Origin: Bacteroidaceae bacterium
GTDB taxonomy: Bacteria > Bacteroidota > Bacteroidia > Bacteroidales > Barnesiellaceae_A
Reading direction: 5' to 3'
Length of the DNA: 64,000 nt
Assembly: GCA_017531985.1 (NCBI GenBank)
Contig: JAFXJY010000022.1
Coordinates: 1 to 64,000 of the forward strand
Position 1 is the first letter of the stretch; every line of letters starts with the position of its first letter. Positions 14,266 through 64,000 of this stretch are shown piece by piece. A program made the position numbers and the translations under genes. The notes below the pieces were generated by a model that was not told the origin of the DNA, ran no database searches, and saw only the letters and a program-made list of their open reading frames with translations.

Positions 14266-14327
14266 ATACTTGATAATGATGCGATATCGGATGAATTGCT
14301 AATCGGTGAAGTTTGAGATAGAAGTAC

Positions 14328-14380: not shown

Positions 14381-14395
14381 AGTATGTATCTATTA

Positions 14396-15598: not shown

Positions 15599-15681
15599 GC
15601 TTTGTATAATATTATATGTGAATGTTTTCAGCCATTGTCAGTTGTGTAAACATGAGCGATGACTGATTACTTACAACTCAA

Positions 15682-16692
15682 TTATGCTTTTTTAAGACCG
15701 ATAGCTTGTGTGGCTGTGATGGCAACAAGTTTGTAAATGTCATCAACACTGCAACCACGCGACAAGTCGTTAACAGGAGCTGCTATACCTTGCAATACAG
15801 GACCTACGGCTTCGGCACCGGCTAAGCGTTGTACGAGCTTGTAAGCGATGTTACCAACTTCGAGTGTGGGGAATACGAGTGTATTGGCATGACCGGCTAT
15901 TTTGCTACCGGGAGCTTTCGAAGCACCTACCGAGGGAACAATAGCTGCATCGGCTTGCAACTCACCGTCAATGGCAAATTCGGGAGCCATTTCTTGAGCC
16001 AGACGAGTAGCTTCCACAACTTTGTCTACCAACTCGTTCTTAGCACTACCCTTGGTTGAGAAGCTGAGCATTGCTACACGAGGTTCTATACCGGCTATGT
16101 CGCGAGCTGTGCGAGCTGTTGAAACAGCGATTTGAGCCAATTCTTGTGCATTGGGGTTGGGCATTACAGCACAATCGGCAAATACGAGTGTACCATTCTC
16201 ACCGTATTCGGCTTTGGGAACAAACATCAAGAATGCTCCTGAAACGACGCTGATACCGGGCATTGTTTTGATAATCTGCAATGCAGGACGCAATACGTCA
16301 CCTGTGGTGTTCTTGGCACCTGCCACTTCACCATCGGCATCACCATTCTTGATGATGAGAGTACCCAAGTACAAGGGATCTTCGGCGAGGGCTGTGGCCT
16401 TCTCGATAGTCATACCCTTGGATTTGCGTAACTCGAAGAGCAAGTTGGCATACACTTCCTTACGGGGGTTATTTACGGGGTCGATGATAGTAGCCTTGTC
16501 GATGTGTTGAAGATTGTGCTTCTCGGCAAGAACTTTTATTTCATCGGGATTACCAATGAGAATAACATCTACTACTTCGTCGGCTAACAGACGATCGGCT
16601 GCTTGTAAGGTACGTTCTTCGGTACCTTCGGGAAGAACGATGCGTTGCTTATCGGCCTTAGCTCGTTCTACGATTTGACTGATTAAATCCAT
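15682..16692 (-). CDS. pta: Phosphate acetyltransferase
   Basis: A 336-residue short-type Pta that exchanges CoA and phosphate to give acetyl phosphate for AckA. The start MDLISQIVERAKADKQRIVLPEG at 16692 matches the family; the in-frame ATG at 16749 is rejected because the -7 box at 16739-16746 falls within it. Typical segments are PEGTEERTLQAADRL, DGELQADAAIVP and GNIAYKLVQRLAGAEAVGP. First gene of the pta-ackA unit. Confidence 0.95.
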   Translation of the reverse strand: MDLISQIVERAKADKQRIVLPEGTEERTLQAADRLLADEVVDVILIGNPDEIKVLAEKHNLQHIDKATIIDPVNNPRKEVYANLLFELRKSKGMTIEKATALAEDPLYLGTLIIKNGDADGEVAGAKNTTGDVLRPALQIIKTMPGISVVSGAFLMFVPKAEYGENGTLVFADCAVMPNPNAQELAQIAVSTARTARDIAGIEPRVAMLSFSTKGSAKNELVDKVVEATRLAQEMAPEFAIDGELQADAAIVPSVGASKAPGSKIAGHANTLVFPTLEVGNIAYKLVQRLAGAEAVGPVLQGIAAPVNDLSRGCSVDDIYKLVAITATQAIGLKKA

Positions 16693-16738
16693 ATTGATTG
16701 TATTTATGATAGTGTTTTTCGGGTAACTATATTTTCGG

Positions 16739-16746
16739 CAAATGTA
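16739..16746 (-). promoter_or_regulatory. -7 box for pta-ackA
   Basis: On the minus strand this reads TACATTTG, matching TAnnTTTG, 46 nt before the pta start at 16692. No clear TTTG lies at the -33 position, so confidence is moderate. Confidence 0.5.
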
Positions 16747-16983
16747 CAAAAAAAACTTATATGTAGTGTGATTATTGTGATAATATTTTTGATAACTATC
16801 AATTTTTAGTCCCTTTTTGTAATATCATTTTAACACAATATCTCGCCCGAAATGTAGAAATCATAGCAAAATAATTGTATTATTGAAAAAATATTTATAT
16901 ATTAGCGGTCGAAAGTAACTTGAATGATACAAAATTGAATTGTTGCTTTTGTTTTCATAATTAACCTACAATAGAAAAATATT

Positions 16984-17370
16984 ATGGATAAAGAGAAGAT
17001 ATTATTGGAATATGACTTTAAGAAAGTATCACCATCGCTCTTGTGGAAATACATCAGTACAGCCGTCGAACTGGCCGAGTGGTTTGCTGATAAAGTAGAG
17101 AATGATGATAAGTTATATACGTTTTATTGGAACAAAAATCCGCAGATGGCACAACTTGTAGGTTCGCGAGTAGGCGTTTTTGTGCGATTTCATTGGCTTG
17201 AAAACAAGAATGATAAGACTTACTTTGAGATGCGTATTACCACATCGGAGTTGACAGGTGCCACCATGTTGTCGGTAATCGATTTTGCAGCCCCCGGTGA
17301 AGAAGATGACCAACGGGAATTATGGGATAATGAGATAGAACGTTTGCAACGGAAGTTGGGCGTTTTATAG
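16984..17370 (+). CDS. START-like domain (SRPBCC fold) protein
   Basis: A 128-residue soluble protein widely conserved in Bacteroidota. The pattern of one N-terminal helix-strand, FYWNKNPQMAQLVG, HWLENKNDKTYFEMRI and a long C-terminal helix (DNEIERLQRKLGVL) fits the helix-grip START/SRPBCC fold, which binds hydrophobic ligands. There is no catalytic motif and no signal peptide. It is probably monocistronic, closed by the terminator at 17392-17436. Confidence 0.75.
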   Translation: MDKEKILLEYDFKKVSPSLLWKYISTAVELAEWFADKVENDDKLYTFYWNKNPQMAQLVGSRVGVFVRFHWLENKNDKTYFEMRITTSELTGATMLSVIDFAAPGEEDDQRELWDNEIERLQRKLGVL

Positions 17371-17391
17371 CCAATATAGCACCTATGATAT

Positions 17392-17436
17392 AGGTCGATT
17401 GCGGTAATACTTGTTGTCGGTATGAGCAATCGACCT
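17392..17436 (+). terminator. Terminator after the START-like gene
   Basis: An 11-bp stem AGGTCGATTGC / GCAATCGACCT with a 23-nt loop, followed by TGTTGTTTTC, 22 bp after the stop codon. Confidence 0.7.
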
Positions 17437-17511
17437 TGTTGTTTTCAGGTTTATTCACATCTTATTATTTAAATGTATAACCTCGGGGTGTGAAATGTCG
17501 ATTTTTTGAGT

Positions 17512-17519
17512 TACTTTTG
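17512..17519 (+). promoter_or_regulatory. -7 box for the LptF/G-ribBA unit
   Basis: TACTTTTG fits TAnnTTTG and lies 26 nt before the ATG at 17545. No good -33 TTTG is seen. Confidence 0.5.
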
Positions 17520-17544
17520 CACCTGAATAAAGAGAATAGTATCG

Positions 17545-19455
17545 ATGTTTCGACCCAAGAGATTATACGGATTTATGATACAGAGCTTTTTGCCTGTATT
17601 TTTTATGACGTTCTTCATCTGCCTATTTATAGTGCTGATGCAGTTCTTGTGGAAGTATGTCGATGAAATGGTGGGTAAGGGCTTGGAAATGTCCGTTTTA
17701 TTCGAGTTGTTTTTCTATGCCGCGGTTACTATGGTACCGTTGGCTTTGCCCTTGTCGATACTCTTGGCATCGTTAATGACCTTTGGAAACTTAGGTGAAC
17801 GACTCGAATTGCTTGCTATTAAGGCTGCCGGTGTCTCTCTATTGCATGCCATGCGACCACTCATAGTGTTGGTGAGTGTTATAGCAGTACTGGCCTTTTT
17901 CTTTCAGAACGATGTCTTGCCACAAGCACAGGTCAAGATGTGGACTCTCTTGTATTCGATGCGTCAGAAGTCACCCGAATTGGATATACCAGAGGGTGTG
18001 TTTTACGACCAAATTAATGGTTACAACCTTTATGTTAAGGAAAAAGACCGTAGTCGTAACATCATGCGTGACATGATGATTTATGACATGTCACAAGGAT
18101 TTGACAATGCAATGATAGTCATGGCCGACTCAGGGCGTCTGAAAACAACTGCCGATAAGAAGCACTTGATACTTACGCTGTACAGTGGTGAGTCGTTCGA
18201 GAATCTTAAATCGGAAAGATCCAATTCTTATACCAATATTCCCTATCGTCGAGAAACATTCTCAATGAAGGAATTGCTTATTCCCTTCGATGCCAACTTT
18301 AATCGCCTTGACGACGGATTGATGTCGGGGCAATATGTCGGAAAGAATTATACCGAGTTGCGTACGTCCATCGACTCGATGAACCTGATTGTTGATAGTC
18401 TCGGACTGGATTATTCGCAGCGTTTGAAGAAGTCGGGTTACTTCGGGTTACACAATAATAATCGTCCGTCCGACTCGTTGGCTCGTATCCGAGAAATCGA
18501 ACGCGACCACATTGCTGCCGGCAAAATCAATCTCGACTCTCTGTGGTTGGGCGAAAATAATCAACGTCGACAACTTTATGTGTCACGAGCCCTCGAACGT
18601 GCCATCAACTACAAGAATGACTATGAATTTAATGCCATCACACTTGATGATAAACAGATGACCATTCGTCGTCATGAGATAGAGTTGATGAAGAAGTTTA
18701 CGCTCTCGCTGGCATGTATTATCTTCTTTTTCATCGGGGCACCGTTGGGAGCCATTATTCGCAAGGGTGGATTGGGTGTTCCCATCGTAGTGTCGGTAAT
18801 ACTATTCATTATATATTATATCATTGACAATACCGGTTATAAACTGGCACGCGATGGTGTGTGGCCTGTGTGGCAAGGTATATGGCTCAGTTCGGCCGTA
18901 CTATTACCATTGGGCATATTCCTTACCTCGCGTGCTACAAAAGACTCGACAGTTCTTAATCTCGATGTCTATGCCGACTTCTTCCGACATCTGTTGGGAA
19001 AGGACAAAGTACGCAAGGTGAACCACAAGGAGATTGTTATGGTAGAGATGAATCCCGATATCGCTATGCAACGTGTGGCTGATCTTAATGAGCGATGCAA
19101 GGCGTTCATGGCTTCCGGTAGACCTCTCAGTTACCTTGCTTATTGGCTCAGAGGTTACGATCTCATGGCAGTGAGAGACATTGCCACATCGGTCGAGGCC
19201 TTGGTTGAATACACTTCTGAAACGACTCAACGCATGGTTACAACTAAGTTGATGGACTATCCTGTAATACATCCCGAACGAATATTGGCACCTATTACAA
19301 TCAAGCCATTAGCTGTTATAATGATGCTGTTCTTTCCGGTAGGAATCCCCCTATACCTGATAGCTAATCATCGATACAAAAACCTCATTAATAATATTAA
19401 GAATGTGTGCAACGTCAGCGACGACTTAGTTAAATTGCTGCAACGCATAGATTAA
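17545..19455 (+). CDS. LptF/LptG (YjgP/YjgQ) family permease
   Basis: A 636-residue inner-membrane protein of the family that, with LptB, extracts LPS for transport to the outer membrane. Residues 1-120 carry three membrane helices including the typical FFYAAVTMVPLALPLSILLASLMTFG, then a periplasmic domain (about 130-385), then three more helices (FTLSLACIIFFFIGAPLGAIIRKGGLGVP near 386-415). It is longer than E. coli LptF/G (about 360) because of a C-terminal extension (about 470-636) with one more hydrophobic segment near 595-615, a form common in Bacteroidota. ribBA follows 28 bp downstream, a conserved neighbour. Confidence 0.88.
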   Translation: MFRPKRLYGFMIQSFLPVFFMTFFICLFIVLMQFLWKYVDEMVGKGLEMSVLFELFFYAAVTMVPLALPLSILLASLMTFGNLGERLELLAIKAAGVSLLHAMRPLIVLVSVIAVLAFFFQNDVLPQAQVKMWTLLYSMRQKSPELDIPEGVFYDQINGYNLYVKEKDRSRNIMRDMMIYDMSQGFDNAMIVMADSGRLKTTADKKHLILTLYSGESFENLKSERSNSYTNIPYRRETFSMKELLIPFDANFNRLDDGLMSGQYVGKNYTELRTSIDSMNLIVDSLGLDYSQRLKKSGYFGLHNNNRPSDSLARIREIERDHIAAGKINLDSLWLGENNQRRQLYVSRALERAINYKNDYEFNAITLDDKQMTIRRHEIELMKKFTLSLACIIFFFIGAPLGAIIRKGGLGVPIVVSVILFIIYYIIDNTGYKLARDGVWPVWQGIWLSSAVLLPLGIFLTSRATKDSTVLNLDVYADFFRHLLGKDKVRKVNHKEIVMVEMNPDIAMQRVADLNERCKAFMASGRPLSYLAYWLRGYDLMAVRDIATSVEALVEYTSETTQRMVTTKLMDYPVIHPERILAPITIKPLAVIMMLFFPVGIPLYLIANHRYKNLINNIKNVCNVSDDLVKLLQRID

Positions 19456-19483
19456 CCTTTAATGATAAACAAATAACAAAACT

Positions 19484-20707
19484 ATGGATAACTCAAAGAT
19501 TGTACTCAACACCATCGAAGAAGCCCTTGAAGATTTCCGCCAAGGGAAGTTTGTAATTGTTGTTGATGACGAAGATCGTGAAAACGAAGGCGACTTTATT
19601 ATTGCCGCCGAGAAAATAACCCCCGAGAAAGTGAATTTTATGCTCACCGTTGGTCGTGGTGTGTTGTGTACCCCTATAACAGAAGAACGTTGTCGTGAAT
19701 TGCAACTGGATATGCAAGTAACCGACAATACATCATTATTGGGTACACCCTTTACAGTAACCATCGATCGTGTAGGAGCAGGATGTACCACAGGAGTATC
19801 TATGAGTGATCGAGCCATTACTATCCGCTCATTGGCCGATCCTACTATGAAACCCACTGATTTTGGTCGTCCCGGACACGTCAACCCATTGCGAGCCCGC
19901 TCCAAGGGTGTATTGGCTCGTGCCGGTCACACCGAAGCAGCAGTCGATTTGGCTCGTCTATCGGGATTGTATCCTGCCGCTGCTCTCATCGAGATTATCA
20001 ACGAGGATGGTACAATGGCTCGTCTGCCACAACTTTATGAAATAGCTAAGAAATACGATATGAAACTCATCGCCATAGCCGACCTGATCAAGTATCGCTT
20101 GCAACGTGAGGCGGTCGTAGAGCGAGGTGAAGAAGTAGCCATGCCTACCGAGCATGGTGAGTTTCGTCTTATTCCATTCCGTCAGATCAGTAACGGGGTG
20201 GAGCATGTTGCACTTGTCAAGGGCGAATGGACACCCGATGAGCCAGTTTTGGTGCGTATGCATTCATCTTGTATGACAGGCGATATATTCGGCTCAAAGC
20301 GATGCGACTGTGGTGAACAATTGCATGAAGCCTTGCGTCAGATTGAAGCCGAAGGTCAAGGTGTATTGGTGTATATGAGTCAAGAGGGACGTGGTATAGG
20401 CTTGATGAATAAGATAAAAGCCTATAAATTGCAAGAACAAGGACTTGATACTGTCGATGCCAATCTGCACCTTGGCTTTAAAGCCGACGAGCGAGATTAT
20501 GGTCCCGGTGCTTCTATCTTGCGTGAATTAGGTATTCGCAACATCCGACTCATGACCAATAACCCCACTAAACGCGTTGGCTTGGAAGGCTACGGACTAC
20601 ACATAGTGGAGAATGTTCCTATCGAAGTGAAACCCAATCCCTACAACGAACATTACCTGCACACCAAGAAGAGTCGTATGGGACACGACTTGCACGAAGT
20701 GGATTGA
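19484..20707 (+). CDS. ribBA: Bifunctional DHBP synthase / GTP cyclohydrolase II
   Basis: A 407-residue fusion that starts both arms of riboflavin synthesis. Residues 1-205 are 3,4-dihydroxy-2-butanone-4-phosphate synthase ([13 protein letters not shown], acidic metal site; [25 protein letters not shown]). Residues about 210-403 are GTP cyclohydrolase II, with the zinc cysteines in [19 protein letters not shown] and the SQEGRGIGL motif. Both active sites look intact. It follows the LptF/G-like gene by 28 bp. Confidence 0.95.
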
Positions 20708-51587: not shown

Positions 51588-52739
51588 TCAGTTACTATTA
51601 TGCGATAGATTGCCCTTAATGCCATCAAGCATAGTGTGTATATATCGCACAATAGCATCATCGCGTGAGGTGAAACCTATTTCATCGGTTGAATATTTAC
51701 TTGGAAATGCAAAGATAGCATTGCTCTCCCCATCAATAGTGCTCATCCAGCAGCACATCATGATACTTTCGTTAAGAGGTATTAGTTCGATGTTGGGTTG
51801 TTTTTGAAGGACATTATATATAGTCAATGTTACATTTTTGTACATGTTATAATAATCGGAGTAGGTTATGTCATCGATGGGTTTATCAAAATAATATCCG
51901 ATAATACTATCTAAATCGCTGCATAACTTATTTACTTGCAATGTGATAACATTATTTGAATCAGTCTCTTGTGGCAAAGTTCTTTGCATGGATTTAACAC
52001 TCGATGCAAATTCTCTATGGTTTGCATCTCTGGAGTATTCGTAATAGCGTTGCGTAATAATAGAGTCTACTCTTTGACGATTGTCAATGTTCCTATAAAA
52101 GTCGCGTAATGAAACCTCCGATGTCACATTAGTTATAAACGACTTATTAAAATGCTTGTTTATCAGAGACTTTACTTCGTTGTCGTATTCATTTCGAGGT
52201 AGATTACTGTCGATGGAGTCAATTCCGCGTTTGACCCTCATAAGTCCTGTGTAATAAGACCTCATCTCACTATGGTATTGGTTTTGATATTCATAAGTGA
52301 GTAATTTATCGCGAATCATTTGCTTGAAAGGTATCCCATCGACATTGTAAAATGCAATAGTTACGTGGCACCCATTATCGGTAAGAGTGAGTAGGTTCTC
52401 CATCATCTTCCTAAATCCCTTTGCGTCACTTCTAATGCCATAATAAAGAACATCTTCAAAAATAATAATGGAGTCTCTCAATTCGGAATTATTTTTATGA
52501 TTAATAGCATCGTTCAATAGTAAATTGATGTTGCTGATGTATTCAGGAAATAGTCCTAAATATCGAGTTGATAGAGAGTTCTGTATCTTTTCGAGGTTAT
52601 CAACCACTTCTTTTGTCTCCTTGGCACCCGAACTCATTTCATAAGCAAAGAATGCAAACGATAACAACAAAGCAAAAGTGGCACTTTGAGTAATTCTCTT
52701 TATAATATTGGAACCATTCTTGAAGTCAAATTTTCTCAT
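51588..52739 (-). CDS. Membrane-anchored protein of unknown function next to the tubulin/VWA operon
   Basis: A 383-residue protein when started at the ATG at 52739 (MRKFDFKNGSNIIKRI), which puts the single hydrophobic helix (about 19-35, ATFALLLSFAFFAYEM) at the N terminus and fits the -7 box at 52791-52798; the frame opens further to 52793. The rest would be outside the inner membrane or cytoplasmic depending on anchor direction. Segments IIIFEDVLYYGIRSDAKGFRKMMENLL, GCHVTIAFYN and SNAIFAFPSKYSTDEIGFTSRDDAIVRYIHTMLD recall the strand order of phospholipase D-like folds, but no HxK motif is present. I do not recognise the family. AT-rich like its neighbours. Confidence 0.7.
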   Translation of the reverse strand: MRKFDFKNGSNIIKRITQSATFALLLSFAFFAYEMSSGAKETKEVVDNLEKIQNSLSTRYLGLFPEYISNINLLLNDAINHKNNSELRDSIIIFEDVLYYGIRSDAKGFRKMMENLLTLTDNGCHVTIAFYNVDGIPFKQMIRDKLLTYEYQNQYHSEMRSYYTGLMRVKRGIDSIDSNLPRNEYDNEVKSLINKHFNKSFITNVTSEVSLRDFYRNIDNRQRVDSIITQRYYEYSRDANHREFASSVKSMQRTLPQETDSNNVITLQVNKLCSDLDSIIGYYFDKPIDDITYSDYYNMYKNVTLTIYNVLQKQPNIELIPLNESIMMCCWMSTIDGESNAIFAFPSKYSTDEIGFTSRDDAIVRYIHTMLDGIKGNLSHNSN

Positions 52740-52790
52740 TCCGTTTGTATGATAGGGCGTTAAATGATAAAACGTAGCATTATATTGATA

Positions 52791-52798
52791 CAAATATA
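52791..52798 (-). promoter_or_regulatory. -7 box for the 51588-52739 gene
   Basis: Minus-strand TATATTTG fits TAnnTTTG, 52 nt before the chosen start; no clear -33 element. Confidence 0.45.
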
Positions 52799-52845
52799 TA
52801 AGGCTACGTTTTTATAAAATATAGATCTATTTCAATAGATAATAA

Positions 52846-53232
52846 TTAAGATAGAACCCCGTCTAAGATTCCTATTCCCTCGTCAATTAAATCTTTGACA
52901 CCTTCATAAAGTTGTTTGAGAGAATCAGCTCCTTCTCTTTTTATGTAAATCTTAGATGTTTTTCCTTCTAAACGTCCTATCTCTGTAATCTCTTCGGAAG
53001 TGTAATTATCCTTATATTTATTTATCTCCTCAATTGCGTTAGCGTGTTTCTCTTTGTACACCTCCCACTCTTGGTCACTGCAAATGTCTCCGTTCAAGAT
53101 TATCTCATGGCACACGTCGCGGTATTGGTCCAAAGCATATTTGCTCGGATTTATGAACTGGCATGATGCGAAAAAAGAACACAAAACAGTAACTGCAATA
53201 GCCATCAAATTGAATTTAGCAAAAGTTTTCAT
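52846..53232 (-). CDS. Small lipoprotein of unknown function
   Basis: A 128-residue lipoprotein (MKTFAKFNLMAIAVTVLCSFFASC, Cys 24). The mature part is highly charged and mostly helical (ICSDQEWEVYKEKHANAIEEINKYKDNY...EEITEIGRLEGKTSKIYIKR). No known family is recognised. It has its own promoter (53295-53326) divergent from the VWA/tubulin operon and lies upstream of the 51588-52739 gene on the same strand. Confidence 0.75.
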   Translation of the reverse strand: MKTFAKFNLMAIAVTVLCSFFASCQFINPSKYALDQYRDVCHEIILNGDICSDQEWEVYKEKHANAIEEINKYKDNYTSEEITEIGRLEGKTSKIYIKREGADSLKQLYEGVKDLIDEGIGILDGVLS

Positions 53233-53340: not shown

Positions 53341-53371
53341 TTTGTTAATGTTTTTTTTTTTTTTAGTTTTG
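53341..53371 (+). promoter_or_regulatory. Promoter of the VWA/tubulin-like operon
   Basis: TTTG at 53341-53344, a 19-nt spacer with a long T run, and TAGTTTTG at 53364-53371 fit the consensus fully. The transcript would start near 53378 with a leader of about 120 nt. It is divergent from the lipoprotein promoter, with only 14 bp between the two -33 boxes. Confidence 0.75.
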
Positions 53372-53496
53372 TCGCTTGTTAGCTTATGTCTTGATAGAGT
53401 AATCTCTTATAGTGCTATAAATTATAAGAATAGGAGGACGAAAAGTTACATGAATAAAAATTGAGTAGAGTAAAACTAACATATAATCAATGTATT

Positions 53497-55119
53497 ATGA
53501 GAAAAATTTTGTTATTTGTATTTTTGTTTTTGGGATTTAGAGGTATGTTTGCAGAAGATGCTTCTACAAAGGCTGTAATGGAAGACTACCCTGGTTTAAT
53601 GAATTTATATAGGGATGAGTTGGAAAGATGTCATGCACATTACATATTTGCTATTGATATATCAAGTTCTATGCTGCCATTTGAGGAGACTGTTAAAAGA
53701 AATTTTTTGGAGTTTGTCCAAGCATTACCTGATGGAGATGAGATTACACTTATCAAGATGGCTGCGTCGGATAGAACCGATTTTGTTAATAACTGTAGAA
53801 GCGTTGAAATAAATCAGGATGTTAGAAGAAATTTTAGAGATATTTTGTATTCTCCTCAATTTCAATTTATTAGGGGTGGGGATAGTGATGGCTCTGATGG
53901 GTTTACAATGGCGAAAAAGGTGATAGAAGCCATAAATGATGTTGGAAGTAATAATTTGGTCTATGTGTATTTCTTTACTGATTTTGAATATTGGACTCAA
54001 CTTAATAGATATGACAAGAGTAAAGAAGATTGGGCTTCCCTCAAAAACAAATTGGCTCATCGACAAGATTTTAGTATGTATAAATATGGACTTGAGTTAA
54101 ATTTCAATAACAACTATCTTCGTAAAGATGCAATATTTAAAGATGAACTAGATGATGTTTTTGGTAATATTGAATATCAAGGTGTGTCTGATGCTACATT
54201 TCTAACGCAATGGTTTGATCAATTGCAAGCTAATATTATGGCAATGAAATTATATAGTGTTGTCAAGTCGGATATAGAAGAATTTACAACTTCAGTTGAA
54301 CTTACACCTTCTTTGTCGGGCGATGATGTTATATTAGATATTACATCCTCCTCTACTATCCCGGTGGTAAAAGGTTTACGTCTGTTCATAGAGAGTAATT
54401 GTGATAATTTTTCTCCCTGTGAAACAGGAGAGATAGAGTTTGGTACACAAGAGGTGAAAATTGGAAAACTGACAACCAATGAAAAGAGTTGGATTCCGGG
54501 CTTTACAATAGTAGGTGGTAGTGGCGTTAATGCAAATGTAGAATATATCTCCGATTATAGCTTGGAAATAGAACGTTTAATGTCACTATATGAAGAGAAA
54601 ATAAACTCGCAAAATAGTAGTGTGATAGAGATGCCTAAATTCCGAGTATGGAATTGTATTGTGCCATTATGGGGCGTCATAGTTATCATGGTAATTATTG
54701 GAATTATTATTTTGTCTATAGTTTACACGCTGTTTTTTATTAAATTAGATAAGGTGTGGTGTGTTCTGGTTAGTCGTACCGACGGCGAGGGAATTAAAAC
54801 AACTGAATTTAATGATGAAATAAGAACACCTATAGAAGTCTCTTCATATATCAACAGACGTCCGGTTGATGCTTGGACATTGCTGTTGAGAGGTAAAAAA
54901 TACAACCCCCTATTTTTTTGGAAAAGGTCAGGATATTATATAAAAGTTGTATCTAATGATATTTTCAATGTTGATATTATGGACTCGGATTATCCAAAGG
55001 ATGTCAAGGAGACAATACCAACTAACGAGGATATTTTCCTATTTCCCAAGGGGAAAGTAAATAATGTTATCCTAAAAATAGCATATAAGAATGAGATTTA
55101 TACAGTAGATTTAAGTTAA
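53497..55119 (+). CDS. Signal-peptide VWA-domain protein with one membrane helix (operon gene 1)
   Basis: A 540-residue protein. The ATG at 53497 gives MRKILLFVFLFLGFRGMFAED, a clear signal peptide; the TTG at 53461 is less likely. A von Willebrand A domain (about 45-245) has the MIDAS DISSS at D54-S58, a Thr near 137 and the Asp of FFTDFEYW near 163, so metal binding looks intact. A beta-rich region follows, then a single membrane helix at about 387-412 (VPLWGVIVIMVIIGIIILSIVYTLFF) and a beta-rich cytoplasmic tail of about 125 residues. The topology puts the VWA domain in the periplasm and the tail in the cytoplasm, where it could meet the tubulin-like protein encoded 18 bp downstream. Confidence 0.85.
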   Translation: MRKILLFVFLFLGFRGMFAEDASTKAVMEDYPGLMNLYRDELERCHAHYIFAIDISSSMLPFEETVKRNFLEFVQALPDGDEITLIKMAASDRTDFVNNCRSVEINQDVRRNFRDILYSPQFQFIRGGDSDGSDGFTMAKKVIEAINDVGSNNLVYVYFFTDFEYWTQLNRYDKSKEDWASLKNKLAHRQDFSMYKYGLELNFNNNYLRKDAIFKDELDDVFGNIEYQGVSDATFLTQWFDQLQANIMAMKLYSVVKSDIEEFTTSVELTPSLSGDDVILDITSSSTIPVVKGLRLFIESNCDNFSPCETGEIEFGTQEVKIGKLTTNEKSWIPGFTIVGGSGVNANVEYISDYSLEIERLMSLYEEKINSQNSSVIEMPKFRVWNCIVPLWGVIVIMVIIGIIILSIVYTLFFIKLDKVWCVLVSRTDGEGIKTTEFNDEIRTPIEVSSYINRRPVDAWTLLLRGKKYNPLFFWKRSGYYIKVVSNDIFNVDIMDSDYPKDVKETIPTNEDIFLFPKGKVNNVILKIAYKNEIYTVDLS

Positions 55120-55137
55120 CCTAAAAAATATAATATT

Positions 55138-58100
55138 ATGCCAACAAAAGCTTATTTTATCGGTTTAGGCGGTTGCGGATTGAAAACCGTCTCAGAGTTG
55201 CAACAAAAGTTGTGCCCCAATGGAGTTAATAATCAAGACCCTAATGGAGATGTCTATCAGTTTACATATATCGACACTGATTTGAAAACATTGGAACCAA
55301 TAAATAAGAATAAGGTAGTTATTCGTAATGCCGACTTCGTTTCATTGGGTGCAACTAATCCATATTTGTCATGGAAAAATGCACAAGATAATACCACACC
55401 CGAAAAACAACGTCTCAATGAATGGATGATACCTCAGGAAGTGGGTAACAGATTTGTATTGCCGAACCAGACTTTGGCTGAAGGTGCCGGTGCAGAACGA
55501 ATGAGAGGAAGAACAGGTGTATATTATTGTTATGAAAATATATATAGAGAAATAACAACAAAACTTAGTCAATTTGCTCAATATGTTCCAGGTCAAACAA
55601 GTACAGAAGAGAATGTATGGGTAATAGCATCGTCTTGTGGTGGAACAGGAAGTTCAATAACCATGGATGTGTTATATATGATAAATAAAATTGTCAACCG
55701 AGATAGTCAACATGCTCCTAACCTGAAATTGGTCTTGTTTATGCCCCAGCCATTTATCGACTGTAATAGGAACAATGTCAATTATCCCTTGAATGCCTAT
55801 TCGTATATGTGGGAAGCCAATGCTTTTAGGAAGGTACATCAAGATGGTAAAGGCAACATGTTCAAATATTTCAGTGTGCTCCCCGACAGCAATAATGATA
55901 ATGTTAGTCAATTTGAACTTTTCAGATATATAATACCTGTCGATTACGAGACCACATTTTATGCTAAAATTGAATTAAATAGTTTGTATAGTACAGTAGC
56001 TGAGATGATATATTATCTCAACAAGGGTACATCTGCAAATTCGATGGTTTCTAATATGAGTAACGATATGGCTCAATTAAGAGACGTGACTCATAAATAT
56101 GATATAGATTGGACACGCCCATTGGTTTCGTATGGATACAGAGTTGTGAAAAAAGCGAATGATGCACTGAGTGAGTATATTCGTATACGCGGTACATACG
56201 AGGTATTGAAGTATGGATTAATGGGAACAGAACTACCCGAAGATCAAAAAGAAACAGTCAAAAAGGAGTTCGGAAAAGAAACAGTATTGCGTTATCTCTG
56301 TGACCTCGATGCAGAAGGTGTTCAAGCAACCGATGGTAGTTTGCAGAATATTCTTACTGATAAATATCAAGAGAGGAGAATACCCAACGGGGAATTTACT
56401 ACAAGCCAAGCAAAAGCGTTTGTTTCCGGTGTAGAACAGATACAAGGAGATGAGCTGAATATTGTCAAAAATATCGCCATAAAGACAATCAAAGAAAAGA
56501 TCAACGAAGGAGTGAAAAAGGCTATTATTGATCATGGTATAGATTATGCTTTGGATTTGTTGCATATTGTGGATGATTTTTATCTTGAGAAGTATGAAGT
56601 GACCGGAACGATAAAAGAAATGTATAATGATGCCTCGGAAAAGATAATTAAAGCTAAACAAGTATGTGAGAAATTATATAATAAGAATCTTGAGAAGGTC
56701 CTAAAATCGAAAGAAGCTGCTACTTTGCAAAAAGCACTGAAAGAATATCGCGATTGGAAAGTGAAGGAACAATTGTATAAGATCAGTTTGGAAATACTTG
56801 ATGAACTGACAAAGACTGGGACAGGATATTTAGAGATTTTGCGAAAGAAGGGAGCTAAAACACAAGGATTACGAGAGGTTTATAATAGAATTGTAGGCTA
56901 TTGTGGCAAATGGGAAGAAGAATATCGCGAATTAGCAAGAAAATTCAGAAGCACAAGCAAGGATGTATTTACGGTGACTATCCCCGATTTATCAGCTATT
57001 GCGACAGGCGAGAATTCGACCGATTGGGCAAGAGATCATGTATTCGATCGATTATATTGCACAACAGTAATAGATTACGATCGAGAGAGAGAGTTAGGGA
57101 GCGGGCAACGTATACCACTACGCAAAGGGGAGACCGGTACAAATCATTTAGATACCTATGTAGAACCTATTGCCGATGTATTGCTGGAAATAGCTCTAAG
57201 CGAGGGTAATGTATTGACCTTTGAAAGAGATGTAGAGAGAAAGGTATTTGACAAAATCAGATTCATTCTTGACGAAGTATGTAGTCTTGAAGGCACTTCG
57301 GTATCTGGTTGGTTGAATATGAGTTTAGAGCAAATACTGGATGATGGCGATTTGCCGAGGGGAATGACTAAAGATCAATTTTATAATATGCTTGACGATA
57401 AAGATGCAATTCCCGTATTATATCCTAAATTATCCGGTGGTGCAACAAAACCTAAACATACAAGGTATATATATGCAACTGACTCGCAAAGTTTAGCCAC
57501 AAAAATAGGATATAACCCCAATGATACACAGGATAATCAATTTGTGCAAGACACGGATATGTCAGATCGAATATTGATTATGAAGATGGAGCTTGGGCTT
57601 GATTTTGTCTCATATAAGTATTTTGATGATATTCAGCGTGTTTATGAAAACATGCATTCTGAAATAAAAAATGGTGATTGGGGATGTCATTTACATCGAG
57701 AATTTGCAAATTCCAATATAGAAAAGAGTGTTAGAGAAATAGAAGCACGAAAGGAGAGTGTCTATGCGAGCAAATTTTTTAAGATGTATTATTATCAGAC
57801 TATAATAGATGTTCTCAAAGAGAAAGATCGAGATACCTATAATAATATCTTTGGAATATTTGAGTTTGATACTAATATAACTTCAACGCAACAAAGAAGC
57901 AATTATGACTTCCTTTTTGCTGATTCGGAAGACGAGGAAAATAGCAGCAATGGCGATTTCGAGGAAAATAGCAGCAATGGCGATTTTTTCAGTGAAGGTA
58001 ATAACGTATGTGATAAATTCTTTGATTTTAAATTAGTACCTAGTGAAAGAAAGGTTCATTTAAAGTTGAGCAAAGTTACTCAAGAGGTGGATAAACTGGT

Positions 58101-58410
58101 CGTTGATAACAACTCTGTTTCTTTAGAACTTGGAGATAATGAATATAAACAAGGTGCTAATTTTATAAATGGATTAATTGCTAACAAGGATATAGTGGAT
58201 TGTTTGAAATGCATAGACGAAATAGAGACCTTTATAAGAGGATTTAGAGAAAAATATAGTCCATTCACAACTGAAATTAGGCATAGATTACAGCTCGAGA
58301 GTGTCAATGATGGCAATCTAAAACTTATGGTTTTAATTAACCAATGGAGAAGAAAACCAGTAAATGAGCATATTGTTAATAGTGCGAGAGAAGCTTGGTC
58401 GGGTCAATAA
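55138..58410 (+). CDS. Tubulin/FtsZ-like GTPase (Tubulin_2 type), large (operon gene 2)
   Basis: A 1090-residue cytoplasmic protein. The N terminus AYFIGLGGCGLKTVSEL (residues 5-21) is the first nucleotide loop of the FtsZ/tubulin fold; FTYIDTDLKTLE near 43-54 matches the FtsZ NTDxxxL element; SSCGGTGSSITMD has the tubulin signature GGTG at 168-171, with Cys instead of the first Gly and Ser instead of the last. LVLFMPQPFIDCNRNN near 195-212 fits the strand after that loop. Beyond about 350 the protein is unlike FtsZ: mostly helical with coiled-coil tendency at 480-620. It is about three times FtsZ length, as in Pfam Tubulin_2 proteins. A 27-nt tandem duplication is at 57934-57987. Polymer formation is inferred, not shown. 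Confidence 0.85.
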   Translation: MPTKAYFIGLGGCGLKTVSELQQKLCPNGVNNQDPNGDVYQFTYIDTDLKTLEPINKNKVVIRNADFVSLGATNPYLSWKNAQDNTTPEKQRLNEWMIPQEVGNRFVLPNQTLAEGAGAERMRGRTGVYYCYENIYREITTKLSQFAQYVPGQTSTEENVWVIASSCGGTGSSITMDVLYMINKIVNRDSQHAPNLKLVLFMPQPFIDCNRNNVNYPLNAYSYMWEANAFRKVHQDGKGNMFKYFSVLPDSNNDNVSQFELFRYIIPVDYETTFYAKIELNSLYSTVAEMIYYLNKGTSANSMVSNMSNDMAQLRDVTHKYDIDWTRPLVSYGYRVVKKANDALSEYIRIRGTYEVLKYGLMGTELPEDQKETVKKEFGKETVLRYLCDLDAEGVQATDGSLQNILTDKYQERRIPNGEFTTSQAKAFVSGVEQIQGDELNIVKNIAIKTIKEKINEGVKKAIIDHGIDYALDLLHIVDDFYLEKYEVTGTIKEMYNDASEKIIKAKQVCEKLYNKNLEKVLKSKEAATLQKALKEYRDWKVKEQLYKISLEILDELTKTGTGYLEILRKKGAKTQGLREVYNRIVGYCGKWEEEYRELARKFRSTSKDVFTVTIPDLSAIATGENSTDWARDHVFDRLYCTTVIDYDRERELGSGQRIPLRKGETGTNHLDTYVEPIADVLLEIALSEGNVLTFERDVERKVFDKIRFILDEVCSLEGTSVSGWLNMSLEQILDDGDLPRGMTKDQFYNMLDDKDAIPVLYPKLSGGATKPKHTRYIYATDSQSLATKIGYNPNDTQDNQFVQDTDMSDRILIMKMELGLDFVSYKYFDDIQRVYENMHSEIKNGDWGCHLHREFANSNIEKSVREIEARKESVYASKFFKMYYYQTIIDVLKEKDRDTYNNIFGIFEFDTNITSTQQRSNYDFLFADSEDEENSSNGDFEENSSNGDFFSEGNNVCDKFFDFKLVPSERKVHLKLSKVTQEVDKLVVDNNSVSLELGDNEYKQGANFINGLIANKDIVDCLKCIDEIETFIRGFREKYSPFTTEIRHRLQLESVNDGNLKLMVLINQWRRKPVNEHIVNSAREAWSGQ
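57934..57987 (+). repeat. 27-bp tandem duplication in the tubulin-like gene
   Basis: Two copies (57934-57960 and 57961-57987) differ by one final base and encode EENSSNGDF twice. The segment is acidic and Asn/Ser-rich and probably a disordered linker. The unit keeps the frame. Confidence 0.95.
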
Positions 58411-58425
58411 TAAAATGCAATAATT

Positions 58426-61347
58426 ATGAAACCAACATGGATATTTAACTTTGTAAAGAAGGATTCGATTGAATCCTTCTTTACGACCTTTTGGAACTCT
58501 GTTCAATCAAATTCGTCAGGGAACTGCCCACGATTGTATTATATTACAGACGGTTTTTCAGATGATTTCTCCGTTGAGAGGGTAGTAACCGAAACAGCGA
58601 AAAATATAGTTACTCCTATGGGTAATACCTCTCAACTTATTGAGGGTTGGCGTGATGTAGACACTGTTGATCATACAAGACATACAGGTTTAAACTTAAT
58701 CTTTGTTGGAGATATAACCAACAAAGAAACACAAAAAAGTATGCATAAATTGGCTGCGATGTTGCGTTCATCCTTGTTAGACGATGATAGACGGTGGACT
58801 AAAGCCGATGTGAGAAGTTATGCTTTGTTGTGGAGACCACAATCGGTATCGGTAGAGCCGGTTAGTGGTGCATGCAAGGATTTCTTGACCGAGCTACACA
58901 ATCTAATGCAAGCTGATATCAACCATAGACCTTTTCATAAAGTCCTATTTTTTGAATCCCCCGAAACAGAAAACGGAAAGACAAAGGATGAGATGATAGA
59001 AGCCATGGCTTTGGCAACATTGCATCTGACAATGCATTCAGCCTGTGAAAATGATGATATCTTATTTGCTCAACCCGACAAAAAATATCTAAATGCAGGA
59101 GTAGCCGGTATTTTCTATGAAAAAGAAATACAGAAAGAACAAGAAGCCTTTTGGTTGAGTACGATGCTAATGGATAAACTGAAAAATGGTACAGATGGTG
59201 AATTCAAGGATGCTCATAAGGCACATGAGGTATTAGAAAAGAATAATGCTTTAGTAGAATCTTTGTCACCCGAGCAAATAGATAGTTCTATTAAAGCAAA
59301 GTGTCCAGCCCCATATGGTAATAGAGATGCCTATGGAGTCGATTGCAAAGTAAATCCATTGAGTTTCAGGCTAAAAGAGGTATGGAATACATATTATAAC
59401 AAATATGTAGTGAATTTGAAAAAGGATCTTGTCAATAAAACAAAACAAATACTTTTTCAGTTCTCGGAAGATTATAAGGACAAACTTCATTCAGAACGTA
59501 TATCTTTTGTAAATTCGAAAGTTGCAAAAATTGAGGACTTTATCTTTGAAATGTTTAAGAACCCAGCTGAGCATGATGTAATAAGTATTCCACAAAGTAA
59601 ATTGCTTTTGGATAAATTTTCTGCCAGAATTGATGACTACTTTAAAACAGTAGATACGGGAAAATTTACTTCTTTTGCTCTTCCTGCTTATCTTAATGGT
59701 GCATATGAGCAAGCTGCCAACGAACATAATGCTGACGAGAATTCTGTTTTGGCAGTTTTGGATGGTAAACTAAGAAATCATTCAGTATTTATTTTATCGG
59801 TTCTTGTACGTGCCATCATATTAGGTATGATGCTCGTATATTTTGTAACGCCTCTTTTTGATAATGAAATAATCAAATATATTGTAGGATCACTTACCTT
59901 TTTGTTGCCGATTTTTTGGGGTCTGTGGAGATTTCACGAACATGTGTCTCGGATAGATGCCCTAAAAGATCAGTACACGGCTTGTGTATTGATGAGATTA
60001 CAGAAAGAACTTAATGAAGAACTGAAAGAGGGTATAAAACATGTTTATACAGATGTTCTTGATTATTGTAAATGGCTAAAAGAACATAAACTTGATTATT
60101 TAGAAAAAAAACTGTCTATAATAAAGCCATTAGAGTTTAGTTTTACCGAGTCAAAGTATTTCATACCTTTGCTCAATTGCAATGTGTCTAATAATGATAA
60201 CTCTCCTATTTCGGCAGAGAACTTGAATAATAATATAACTCGGGATATATTGACTGATAGAAAGCAAATTTCAGGAGCTTTTGATGAACATGAACTCTTG
60301 CGAGAGGTTCCTATTGGACATGTGAAGATAAATGATGAGACTATATTGACGATAAATGATATCTTGAATGATACTAATAAAGGATATAAAACCAGATTGT
60401 TAAAAGAGCTCTTACAATGCAGAACTCAAATTCGTGATAATAGTGAAATGTCTGTTCGTTTTAAGAATGAATACAAATCCAATACTCTATTGTTGATATT
60501 GGATGTGTCGGGAAGCATGAGGGGACAAAAATTGTCTGACTTGAAAGATGTCGTTTCTAAGCTTGAGCAAAAAGCATCGAGCATGGTATGGATTGCATTT
60601 AATGATAATGTGGTAGCTGATGGAAATTCATCGAAGGAATTTGAAGCAATAAAAGCAGGAGGATGTACTAATTATATACCGGCACTGGAAAGAGCTACGG
60701 AAATACTAAAAAGTAGTCCTGCTGATAAAGTAATATTTATTAGTGATGGAGGTCCAGCGGAAACTCTAAAAAATATTCTTGAAACAGCATATAAATTAAA
60801 TCAGCCTGTTCATACTATCTCTATTGGCAATGATGGTCGAGATGTAATGCGTCAGTTGGCAGAAAAAACGAATGGCGTACAGATTGTTGTTGATGATATA
60901 AAAGATATCTCTGCAGAGGTAGAGGATAAACTAAATGTTGAGGCTATAATTGGCAAAGACGGAGAATACACTTTTGGAGAATCTATGCAGAAATGTTATA
61001 TACCCGGGTGTGTCAAGATGTTGTTTAAGTATGCCATTGAGAGGACGCAGACGGAACGTTTCTCTATTCATGAGTTACTTGGTAATTATAGTAATGAAAA
61101 AGGAATGCAAGAGTGGTTAAATTTTTCAATGCCGACTTGTCAATATGCTGTTGCCCTATCTCATGAGCCGGAAAGACCGATTATATTCTTACAATTAGTA
61201 ACTCCAGTTAATCCAGAACTGCGGAATAATGTATTAAATGATAAACTAAATATTACATCTACTACCAATATGCCAGATATAGTAGCATCAATTATTTCAT
61301 TACAACCAATGAATGCTCTCTCTGATTTACAGGGTTTTCGGATGTAA
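58426..61347 (+). CDS. VWA-domain protein with central membrane hairpin (operon gene 3)
   Basis: A 973-residue protein without signal peptide. Residues about 1-240 form an alpha/beta domain (LYYITDGFSDDFSVERVV, LNLIFVGDITN, HKVLFFESPE), reminiscent of a receptor or nucleotide-free Rossmann fold but unassigned. Helical region 250-445. Two membrane helices at about 455-475 and 483-503 put both ends in the cytoplasm. The C-terminal VWA domain (about 685-865) has a full MIDAS: LDVSGSM with D693, Thr in GGCTNYIPAL and Asp in VIFISDGGPAE. A cytoplasmic VWA next to a tubulin-like GTPase suggests a membrane tether for it (inference). It begins 15 bp after the tubulin-like gene. Confidence 0.83.
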   Translation: MKPTWIFNFVKKDSIESFFTTFWNSVQSNSSGNCPRLYYITDGFSDDFSVERVVTETAKNIVTPMGNTSQLIEGWRDVDTVDHTRHTGLNLIFVGDITNKETQKSMHKLAAMLRSSLLDDDRRWTKADVRSYALLWRPQSVSVEPVSGACKDFLTELHNLMQADINHRPFHKVLFFESPETENGKTKDEMIEAMALATLHLTMHSACENDDILFAQPDKKYLNAGVAGIFYEKEIQKEQEAFWLSTMLMDKLKNGTDGEFKDAHKAHEVLEKNNALVESLSPEQIDSSIKAKCPAPYGNRDAYGVDCKVNPLSFRLKEVWNTYYNKYVVNLKKDLVNKTKQILFQFSEDYKDKLHSERISFVNSKVAKIEDFIFEMFKNPAEHDVISIPQSKLLLDKFSARIDDYFKTVDTGKFTSFALPAYLNGAYEQAANEHNADENSVLAVLDGKLRNHSVFILSVLVRAIILGMMLVYFVTPLFDNEIIKYIVGSLTFLLPIFWGLWRFHEHVSRIDALKDQYTACVLMRLQKELNEELKEGIKHVYTDVLDYCKWLKEHKLDYLEKKLSIIKPLEFSFTESKYFIPLLNCNVSNNDNSPISAENLNNNITRDILTDRKQISGAFDEHELLREVPIGHVKINDETILTINDILNDTNKGYKTRLLKELLQCRTQIRDNSEMSVRFKNEYKSNTLLLILDVSGSMRGQKLSDLKDVVSKLEQKASSMVWIAFNDNVVADGNSSKEFEAIKAGGCTNYIPALERATEILKSSPADKVIFISDGGPAETLKNILETAYKLNQPVHTISIGNDGRDVMRQLAEKTNGVQIVVDDIKDISAEVEDKLNVEAIIGKDGEYTFGESMQKCYIPGCVKMLFKYAIERTQTERFSIHELLGNYSNEKGMQEWLNFSMPTCQYAVALSHEPERPIIFLQLVTPVNPELRNNVLNDKLNITSTTNMPDIVASIISLQPMNALSDLQGFRM

Positions 61348-61435
61348 CTGACTGTTAATTAGATGTCTAATGGTCGGCACTGTTTGTCATTCTTAGAAAA
61401 CATTAAATAAATACTGATAAAATAAAATTTTAGTT

Positions 61436-63145
61436 ATGTCTGGTTTGATATTTTTACTTATATATTCTGCACTTTGTGTGCTGATATCTTTAATAGTATA
61501 TTTTTTCTGTTCTTATGTAAAAGTTTATTATACACATAATGATGGAACACGTGAGTTTGTAGGTGTGTTATGGAAATCTGCAAGAAAATATACATTATAC
61601 AATGATTTTCCGCCCTTGGCACGTAAGATAGGATACGTTGATCAGCAAGGAGTGATTAATATTGAAAAAGAGAATAGTCAACATAATTATGTGTCTACCC
61701 CATGCGGAACGTTCAATAATCAAGGTGAAATTCTTGATATTAACGGAAATATTATTGCTAAGAGTCTGTCTAATGATAAGCGTATATCTTCTGTTGTAGA
61801 TATAAAAAATAAAACTTTGGAAATAGCGTATGTTGCCAGTGGGTATAAGAAAGTCCCAGATATGATGCTTAGAGCAGCTGCATTTGGAGCCTTGTGGAGC
61901 GAAATAAAGAATGAAGAAAAGGAGGCTAAATCTGATGTGCGTATTGGGCTTAGAGATTTGGCATTGCCCTCTACTGTTATCTTTTTGTTATTTTATGTTC
62001 CTTTTGGATTCTTAGCTAAGATATTTAGTTGGTTAACTAATATTGGAGATGGGGTTTCATATGTATGTTGGATGATGTTGGCATATTTTATGGTAAATCT
62101 TATTCTTTATCTTGTAAAGAGCCACTTTACAATGCGTAATAGACCATTGACATTTTTTACTGGACTTATAAATAGAAATGTAGGTGTGCAAGTTTGGAAT
62201 GTGCTTATAATAATTATATCGGCTATCGGAGTTTTTACAAGTACGTTTATCGCTGATTTTACAATAATACCTGTGTTTGCATCAGTCTTAATAGGATTCT
62301 TAGGAAATATTGGAAGTTTTAATGGTCAATGGAATGTTGTTGAACCGGTAAGTTCTTGGGGGCGGAATTGGTCTCGTAGTGCCTATGCTCATGATGGACA
62401 AACATCTTCTACAAAGACGGGTATTATAGATGTTGAATACGATTGGTCTCCTATATTGAAACTTATGGGGGTTAAGCAAGTGAACCCCGAAAAAGACAAG
62501 GTGTCTATATCTATCTTGGAGTCGGATTTGGATAATTTAAAAACATCTAGGGTGCGTCAGTTAAATCCGTTTAGAAGTTCTGTTAATGGGGTTGATTTCG
62601 ATACGTTAAAAACAAATGCTAATGAAATATTGAAAGGTTGCGATGATGCAACAGTTTCTTATGAAAAATCAGCCCTAGAACAGATTATTCAAAGTGCGTT
62701 AAAGTTGTGTGCAAAGTATTCACTTGCAGATTTTCAACTGTATGATCTGATTTTACATTTTTGTCAGAGTGAGAGTATTATAAAATATGTAACCGATGAC
62801 CAGTCGGATAAAATAGGTAAAATCAGTGAATATTTTAGATATCCATTGGAAACTTTATATGATCGAGAGGGCGATTGTGATTGTAAGTCAGTACTTGCAT
62901 ACAAGATATTTGAGTTACTTAATGCCAATCCGCGTATTGCTATTGTTAAAGCTGGAAAGGATGTCCCATATAATCATGCCGCGGTAGTACTTAGGAAAAA
63001 AAGTCAAGCCATGGTTCAAATCCCATCAACATATCAAACATATGATGATGCTAGGCAGTATATCTTCTGTGAAGTAACAGGTGAAGGATATAAGCCAGGT
63101 AATATTCCCTCTATTGTTGATGTTAAGTCTATTGATCTAATATAA
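61436..63145 (+). CDS. Multi-pass membrane protein with C-terminal transglutaminase-like domain (operon gene 4)
   Basis: A 569-residue protein. It has an N-terminal membrane helix (about 3-25), a soluble region (30-170), and about four helices between 178 and 295 (LPSTVIFLLFYVPFGFLAKIF, VCWMMLAYFMVNLILYLV, VWNVLIIIISAIGVF, FTIIPVFASVLIGFLG). The C-terminal domain (about 400-569) shows the transglutaminase/papain-like pattern: YDREGDCDCKSVLAYKIFELL with the probable nucleophile C481 or C483, HAAVVL with H514, and FCEVTGEGYKPG with an acidic residue near 546. This resembles transglutaminase-like cysteine peptidases of bacteria. Topology suggests a cytoplasmic or periplasmic catalytic domain; not resolved. 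88 bp after the VWA gene. Confidence 0.78.
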   Translation: MSGLIFLLIYSALCVLISLIVYFFCSYVKVYYTHNDGTREFVGVLWKSARKYTLYNDFPPLARKIGYVDQQGVINIEKENSQHNYVSTPCGTFNNQGEILDINGNIIAKSLSNDKRISSVVDIKNKTLEIAYVASGYKKVPDMMLRAAAFGALWSEIKNEEKEAKSDVRIGLRDLALPSTVIFLLFYVPFGFLAKIFSWLTNIGDGVSYVCWMMLAYFMVNLILYLVKSHFTMRNRPLTFFTGLINRNVGVQVWNVLIIIISAIGVFTSTFIADFTIIPVFASVLIGFLGNIGSFNGQWNVVEPVSSWGRNWSRSAYAHDGQTSSTKTGIIDVEYDWSPILKLMGVKQVNPEKDKVSISILESDLDNLKTSRVRQLNPFRSSVNGVDFDTLKTNANEILKGCDDATVSYEKSALEQIIQSALKLCAKYSLADFQLYDLILHFCQSESIIKYVTDDQSDKIGKISEYFRYPLETLYDREGDCDCKSVLAYKIFELLNANPRIAIVKAGKDVPYNHAAVVLRKKSQAMVQIPSTYQTYDDARQYIFCEVTGEGYKPGNIPSIVDVKSIDLI

Positions 63146-63154
63146 TTTCTTTCT

Positions 63155-64000
63155 ATGCAAAGGTTGAGATTTGTAATATTCGTGTTTCTATTTCCTCTTT
63201 GCTGGAATATTGTTTTTATGTTTTGGTGTAATGAAATTAGAAATTCAAAATCTCTAGTAGAAGTAATTATACCAGAATCTACGAAAGTATTCTTAGATTC
63301 TATTGGTTCGCGAATTATAGAAGGTGTTGACAATGTTGTAGTTGTTGAAATAGATTCTATTGATAAAAATTCATGGACCAATATTACCGATTATGGACAA
63401 GATGATTCTGATGACCTATATAGGTATGAAATTGATTCGTTGTTTGTCTTTTATTCAGATTTAGATGAACTTGAAATAATTAATGATATACAACAATATG
63501 CCATTGAAGCAATAGAGCCATTAATAGAAGTTATGGGGCATTATATATATCCCTATCAAGTAAGAGGTAGAAAGCTTCCTATTTATATATGTAATAAAGA
63601 GGAAACTTACCAAAAGGTTTGTCAAACTCTGACTCATAGGAATACTGATTTTACAGATACATGGGGGTTGCATGTACATGCATATTGTGGCTTAGAAACA
63701 CAAACATCAGGTGTTATTCTAAATAAAGGTAATATTTATGAATTGTCTAATACTCCTGAGATAGATTTGAAAGCAACACTATGGCACGAAATGAATCATT
63801 ATGTATTCTTTCAATCATTAGATTTGTCGAAAGAACTGACTCCTTATGTGTGGATGTATGAAGGTCTAGCTGATTATTTTGCTTCATTAGTAAGAGAACA
63901 AACTTTGTTATTGTCTGAGAGCCAGAAACAATCTATAATGAAGAATACACTACAATCCAGCTTTGATCCATATACGGACAATTATTCAGGTGGAGAACTT
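63155..64000 (+). CDS. Membrane-anchored HExxH (gluzincin) metalloprotease, 3'-truncated by window edge (operon gene 5)
   Basis: The ATG at 63155, 9 bp after the preceding stop, opens a frame that stays open to the right edge (282 codons seen). The start MQRLRFVIFVFLFPLCWNIVFMFW is a signal anchor. After an acidic region, LWHEMNHYVFF contains the zinc motif HEMNH at 211-215, and YEGLADYFASL supplies the third ligand E236 about 20 residues later, the plan of gluzincin (peptidase MA clan) enzymes. The end of the protein is outside the window. Substrate unknown; operon position suggests a role with the tubulin/VWA proteins. Confidence 0.82.
   Translation, partial: MQRLRFVIFVFLFPLCWNIVFMFWCNEIRNSKSLVEVIIPESTKVFLDSIGSRIIEGVDNVVVVEIDSIDKNSWTNITDYGQDDSDDLYRYEIDSLFVFYSDLDELEIINDIQQYAIEAIEPLIEVMGHYIYPYQVRGRKLPIYICNKEETYQKVCQTLTHRNTDFTDTWGLHVHAYCGLETQTSGVILNKGNIYELSNTPEIDLKATLWHEMNHYVFFQSLDLSKELTPYVWMYEGLADYFASLVREQTLLLSESQKQSIMKNTLQSSFDPYTDNYSGGEL

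Follow-up and report, generated by a model that had tools for sequence, protein, structure and literature searches.

The locus raises the question of whether an operon that joins a tubulin-like GTPase (TUB) to two VWA proteins (VWA1 and VWA2), a transglutaminase-like protein (TGL) and a predicted metalloprotease (ZNP) is a device for membrane remodeling or a conflict switch. FtsZl1 tubulins, the family to which TUB is assigned below, occur across bacteria and archaea, and what PMC2875224 and PMC7159879 give for their function are predictions, not tests. The window, which is the whole 64,000-nucleotide stretch of DNA analyzed here, comes from a gut-type bacterium, and its contig runs on beyond the window to position 74117.

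Gene content and predicted topology of the operon

Five intact ORFs follow one another on the plus strand, separated by 18, 15, 88 and 9 bp, just where a first-pass annotation, made from the sequence alone, had placed them. The single promoter that it also proposed found no backing, as the promoter scan gave no more matches than shuffled sequence; the counts of both consensus promoters and terminators are at chance level. Divergent from the operon, on the minus strand, are LIPO128 (52846..53232), a small DUF6565-like lipoprotein (Pfam E-value of 0.0016, below the cut-off), and U401 (51588..52793), which has an N-terminal hydrophobic segment and for which the ATG at 52739 is a likelier start than the TTG at 52793. 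Relatives of U401 lie beside three other FtsZl1 operons (L068_12, with an E-value of 1.8e-57, L072_15 and L069_15), and relatives of LIPO128 adjoin TUB operons in at least four loci (L047, L079, L084 and L049, and weakly L066); because of this recurrence, the locus probably also takes in the upstream pair (51588-53232). U401 has no match in the other 392 of the 393 sampled genomes of the order. Downstream of ZNP, the genes look ordinary as judged from sequence, for example a ribosomal protein L31-like ORF at 64421. A MoxR/DUF58/VWA cluster, Bat-like as judged from sequence, lies approximately 4 kb downstream of the operon (contig 68493-71999, corresponding to L002 16494-20000), and its proximity is probably a coincidence.

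TUB (55138..58410, plus strand; 1090 aa with a long C-terminal region) belongs, by its sequence, to the FtsZl1 (Tubulin_2) family. Residues 7-346 match Tubulin_2 (PF13809) with an E-value of 3.5e-33 and a score of 115.8 bits against a curated cut-off of 27, which bears out the tubulin superfamily membership claimed at first sight; PF00091 is matched with an E-value of 7.5e-7. The FtsZ-fold loops GLGGCG and GGTGSS had been described as intact, and GLGGCG and SSCGGTGSS are indeed invariant across the 13 aligned TUB sequences (alignment A5), with GIGGCG in place of GLGGCG in the outlying locus L061. Across loci at approximately 30-47% protein identity, the conservation of these loops and of the motifs of the other four proteins described below cannot be due to chance. 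A second tubulin-family gene of the host, on contig C14 (E-value of 8.5e-44), is a normal FtsZ, which indicates that TUB is not the division protein.

VWA1 (53497..55119, plus strand) comprises a signal peptide, a VWA domain with the MIDAS motif DISSS, a single TM helix at approximately residues 385-410 according to hydropathy, and a cytoplasmic tail of approximately 120 aa. The ATG at 53497 is the more likely start than the TTG at 53461 because it yields the signal peptide and fits 13 orthologues. The match of VWA1 to VWA_2 (E-value of 2.2e-4) falls under the curated Pfam cut-off, and DISSSM, T94 and D162FEYW are invariant in a 14-row alignment (A6). VWA2 (58426..61347, plus strand) contains no signal peptide and combines an N-terminal alpha/beta domain, a coiled coil, a two-TM hairpin, a linker and a VWA domain with a full MIDAS, in which DxSxS (693-697), T748 and D774 are invariant; thus, both MIDAS motifs noted in the first-pass annotation stand. 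Its match to VWA_2 (E-value of 8.6e-6) is just short of the cut-off, and the L053 orthologue contains a CoxE-type VWA over the cut-off. The AF2 model of VWA2 (pLDDT 66.9) shows alternating strands and helices over residues 4-254, followed by the coiled coil, the TM hairpin, a disordered linker and the VWA domain, and in a fold search residues 684-837 match VWA folds with Z scores of up to 20, the archaeal ArnAB complex among them. For the idea that the N-terminal alpha/beta domain may be a degenerate tubulin that partners TUB, profile comparison gave no match (prob 0.1), and in the fold search the VWA domain took up the matches.

TGL (61436..63145, plus strand) is predicted to contain an N-terminal TM helix with a beta domain, four TM helices and a C-terminal transglutaminase-like cysteine protease domain. 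Pfam gave no match for the window TGL, and the best match of its L064 homologue is PF04473 (E-value of 5.7e-4; 19.8 bits, just below the cut-off of 20.5). The only PDB sequence matches of TGL are two weak ones, to LapG chains (E-values of 0.08-0.14). In the fold search, residues 360-569 match the putative Bacteroidetes protease 3kd4 (Z 9.5), LapG 4u65 (Z 9.4), the TGase 4xz7 (Z 8.5), a further LapG entry (Z 8.4) and PNGase (Z 8.1), the overall range being Z 9.5 to 7.3, from a modest model (pLDDT 66.7) for which the Foldseek E-values by themselves are weak. The Cys/His/acidic pattern seen at the outset is constant, as Cys481, His514 and Glu546 are invariant in six homologues (alignment A2), together with the GDCDC motif. 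TGL is, on this modeled evidence, a member of the transglutaminase-like cysteine protease fold class. Short TGL homologues consist of a short N-terminus (basic in L064) followed by four TM helices, which argues for a cytoplasmic location of the catalytic domain. In the 393 order genomes, the TGL profile matches the window locus and, apart from it, a single distant homologue (L117 9563-10603), which lies in a phage-like region and has a canonical GDC...H...DPV pattern.

ZNP (from 63155 to the window edge at 64000, plus strand, with its stop at contig position 64186) is a signal-anchored protein of 343 aa. The proposal of a zinc protease with HEMNH and a downstream glutamate agrees with the alignment of four ZNPs (A3), in which HEMNH (211-215) and Glu236 are invariant. 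The L056 orthologue matches DUF2268 (PF10026) with 25.5 bits against a cut-off of 23.6, and the window ZNP, scored on the 281 aa inside the window, reaches 20.0 bits. ZNP is accordingly predicted to be a DUF2268-like gluzincin metalloprotease located in the periplasm. Apart from TUB, the proteins of the window operon yielded VWA, DUF2268 and related Pfam matches that are all sub-threshold.

The first-pass annotation had proposed a cytoplasmic GTPase polymer held at the membrane by VWA adaptors on both sides and coupled to two peptidases. Topology predictions from sequence refine this picture: the two VWA domains face opposite sides of the membrane, that of VWA1 being periplasmic and that of VWA2 cytoplasmic, and of the two peptidases only ZNP is predicted to be periplasmic, the catalytic domain of TGL facing the cytoplasm.

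Constant and variable genes in related loci

Single-sequence searches with TUB revealed no relatives in the genome contigs and, across the order, recovered the window alone. Scanning the genome contigs with an alignment of four TUB sequences brought up 45 loci, including 13 near relatives (L053-L065), all in Bacteroidales, with 32-46% identity in the best segments, mostly over almost the full length. VWA1, TUB and VWA2 are present in this order in the window and in all 12 assessable relatives, L061 being cut off by a contig end. The VWA2 gene of L057 is broken into two ORFs that overlap (5226-7969), which reflects a frameshift or an error of the metagenome assembly.

The genes that follow the core vary. 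TGL is located after VWA2 in five of the 13 relatives (L053, L054, L055, L056 and L064; six of 14 loci with the window), and ZNP follows TGL in L053, L054 and L056 (four of 14 loci with the window). The full five-gene set is thus present in three relatives, one of which is the cultured Phocaeicola barnesiae DSM 18169, whereas seven of the 13 related loci contain the core with neither TGL nor ZNP, which indicates that the core can function in the absence of the proteases. The TUB tree places the four full sets together with L055 in a clade with 100/100 support, and L064 with the seven core-only loci in a second one. The five genes thus co-occur repeatedly, but they are not equal partners, the core being fixed and the outputs variable.

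Other genes occupy the vicinity of the core in some relatives. In L064, a gap of 7 bp separates TGL from a TPR-TIR gene (TIR_2 E-value of 2.6e-17) downstream of it, in L062 genes of the macro-TIR and TIR-WG types lie upstream together with more TIR-like ORFs, an M48-TerB protein is encoded a few genes downstream in L065, and L055 adjoins type III-D CRISPR genes; these TIR, M48-TerB and CRISPR neighbors are single cases and not a statistical association with defense. The short TGL and the TPR-TIR gene of L064 are followed by a 271-aa protein with a P-loop-like motif, seemingly in one operon (16329-19671). Directly upstream of VWA1, L064 (7729-8275) and L065 (7714-8284) carry two small genes, one of them bPH_2-like (below the cut-off), which are possibly further optional parts.

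A precise exchange of the whole operon is observed between two Paludibacteraceae-type loci. L059 and L066 have both flanks in common (624 bp at 94% and approximately 2.5 kb at 87% nucleotide identity), and the space between these flanks is taken up in L059 by a window-type VWA1-TUB-VWA2 operon (640-8344) and in L066 by an FtsZl1 operon of another kind (7807-16861). That different FtsZl1 operons replace each other so precisely suggests that their roles are equivalent and that variation is selected for. The slot (L059 1-10878 and L066 7233-19352) appears as an exchange hot spot with two diverged FtsZl1 operons at one chromosomal position, and its right flank is also found in L057, L058, L060 and L063. 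More FtsZl1 operon types exist in Bacteroidales. In other FtsZl1 operons of Bacteroidota, Clostridia and Fibrobacteraceae, an exported VWA or VWA-like protein, TUB and a large protein with TM helices commonly follow one another; pairwise BLAST detected no similarity of VWA1 and VWA2 to the neighbors in L030 and L032, so that homology with these positions is a matter of layout only. L069 (19007-20224) and L072 (18977-20176) each carry, after a complete FtsZl1 operon, an additional and shorter TUB-like gene of approximately 400 aa.

Tubulin_2 is present in one of nine congeners and in 16 of the 393 order genomes. The left flank of the window locus is common to the congeners, after which the sequence diverges, and no empty site could be recognized there. 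Phage, plasmid and viral collections contained no copies at the sensitivity used.

Possible roles of the operon

The reading that we favor, at slightly less than an even chance, is an inner-membrane tubulin-VWA switch with exchangeable outputs, a novel subtype of FtsZl1 (Tubulin_2)-VWA operon that would serve in conflict or upon envelope attack. The periplasmic VWA domain of VWA1 would bind a ligand or sense a disturbance of the envelope, and the signal would be relayed through the TM helix and the cytoplasmic tail. VWA2 and TUB would form the cytoplasmic side, where the VWA proteins may tether TUB to the membrane and its GTP-dependent assembly may set a threshold. The assembled state would then switch on the outputs, which in the window would be the membrane-bound cytoplasmic TGL and the periplasmic metalloprotease, in one relative a TIR protein, and in others nothing adjacent. 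The purpose may be inter-genomic conflict, such as phage defense, or an answer to envelope attack; conflict or envelope stress is the more likely setting compared with housekeeping.

Several observations support such a switch. The core trio is constant while TGL and ZNP vary, and the catalytic, MIDAS and GTP-loop residues are all invariant; the TGL domain matches the folds of LapG, TGases and other cysteine proteases. The TPR-TIR protein replaces the output in L064, and TIR genes lie upstream in L062. The core is exchanged precisely with a different FtsZl1 operon between common flanks, Tubulin_2 is spread patchily, and a normal FtsZ is encoded elsewhere in the host genome. Sets of a tubulin with two vWA proteins have, moreover, already been placed among conflict systems (PMC7159879). 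The switch is weakened by PADLOC-DB 2.0.0, which gave no convincing defense-family match for the core proteins and only sub-threshold noise, by the position of the five-gene loci among ordinary genes with no obvious defense islands, by the lack of copies in the phage, plasmid and viral collections at the sensitivity used, and by the seven relatives whose core is accompanied by neither protease. In a narrower version, which we regard as doubtful, VWA1 would detect contact with a phage or toxin and a GTP-driven TUB filament on VWA2 would activate TGL (or TIR), so that the cell is stopped or killed; this version is a loose analogy to filament-activated caspases.

Membrane remodeling with no role in defense, in which TUB filaments and VWA adaptors would bend or organize the inner membrane into vesicles or invaginations while the peptidases trim parts, is rather unlikely in our view, although the family and its VWA partnership are those of the FtsZl1 operons in PMC2875224 and most components have TM helices or signal peptides. 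The patchy presence, the exchange of whole cassettes and the swap of the output for TIR argue against it, and the 2010 proposal was itself based on gene context only. A role in regulated proteolysis, either to control the quality of the envelope or to process surface or secreted proteins, seems still a little less likely. VWA1 would capture a substrate or sense misfolding, ZNP would cut on the periplasmic side and TGL on the cytoplasmic side, and TUB and VWA2 would serve as a scaffold, which is consistent with the predicted location of one protease on each side of the membrane and with the presence, among the nearest TGL folds, of LapG, whose regulated proteolytic activity releases adhesins. 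The flexible VWA2 linker before the VWA domain (residues 579-617 in the window) is a possible TGL cleavage site, given that it spans 32-40 residues in all TGL-bearing loci compared with five in four core-only loci. However, L062 and L065, which both lack TGL, have linkers of 19 and 32 residues, respectively, common descent accounts for most of the correlation, and both proteases are missing in seven loci. That absence would also fit a loose neighborhood, in which a three-gene FtsZl1 operon is followed by TGL and ZNP as unrelated passengers; we consider this improbable, because two deeply separated branches of the TUB tree both have TGL directly behind VWA2, followed by different genes, and because the matches to its profile in the 393 order genomes are limited to this locus and the one phage-like-region domain. 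A switch that answers conflict or envelope attack is favored over both remodeling and routine regulated proteolysis.

Comparison with described systems

Searches of the window proteins against NCBIfam revealed nothing convincing, and those against PHROGs nothing above noise. A close parallel to TGL is the LapG type of BTLCP, with which it shares the fold class and the Cys-His-acid arrangement; LapG is soluble and periplasmic, whereas TGL is membrane-anchored with a catalytic domain predicted to be cytoplasmic and uses Glu as the acid. The operon as a whole recalls the MoxR-vWA ternary systems of Kaur et al. (2020) in its CoxE-type VWA and its variable effectors, some of which are peptidases, including transglutaminase-like ones. 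It differs from them in that a tubulin takes the place of the NTPase and no MoxR AAA+ ATPase is present in the operon; none of the seven window proteins matches an AAA domain.

Kaur et al. (PMC7159879) also described a tubulin with two vWA proteins as part of the GTPase-centered GAP1-N2 conflict systems in Firmicutes and Actinobacteria. As in that subtype, the window set has a tubulin and two vWA proteins, one of them TM-bearing with an extracytoplasmic vWA (the sidedness here being a sequence-based prediction), a membrane-proximal arrangement and variable outputs. However, GAP1-N2 systems are defined by DO-GTPase, GAP1 and FNIII proteins, and their tubulin/vWA subtype has been reported only from Firmicutes and Actinobacteria. 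Because the host genome has no match to GAP1-M (PF20014) or DO-GTPase2 (PF19993), both of which were detected in the C. glutamicum control, the window set resembles the GAP1-N2 tubulin/vWA system in outline without being a member.

Equally close are the FtsZl1 operons that Makarova and Koonin described in 2010 (PMC2875224) and for which membrane remodeling was predicted from gene context, in agreement with the mention in the first-pass annotation of FtsZ-like families tied to a VWA protein. The family membership of TUB, an operon VWA with an intact MIDAS, TM-rich partners and a separate normal FtsZ are all common to these operons and the window. VWA proteins, a GTPase, a kinase and OmpA are the partners listed there; no window protein has a Pfam match to OmpA, a Ser/Thr kinase or a P-loop GTPase, which are frequent and not defining partners. 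What distinguishes the window is two VWA genes and the outputs, TGL and a metalloprotease. In its main text, PMC2875224 mentions neither a peptidase nor a transglutaminase, and the exact five-part set, which the first-pass annotation did not recognize as a described system, is described in the main text of neither PMC2875224 nor PMC7159879. The window subtype has handles that the 2010 prediction did not have, as catalytic residues can be named for both proteases, a natural TIR replacement exists and a minimal version has three genes; combined with P. barnesiae DSM 18169 as a cultured carrier and with the site at which FtsZl1 operons of two kinds swap, they make the question of membrane remodeling or conflict switch directly testable.
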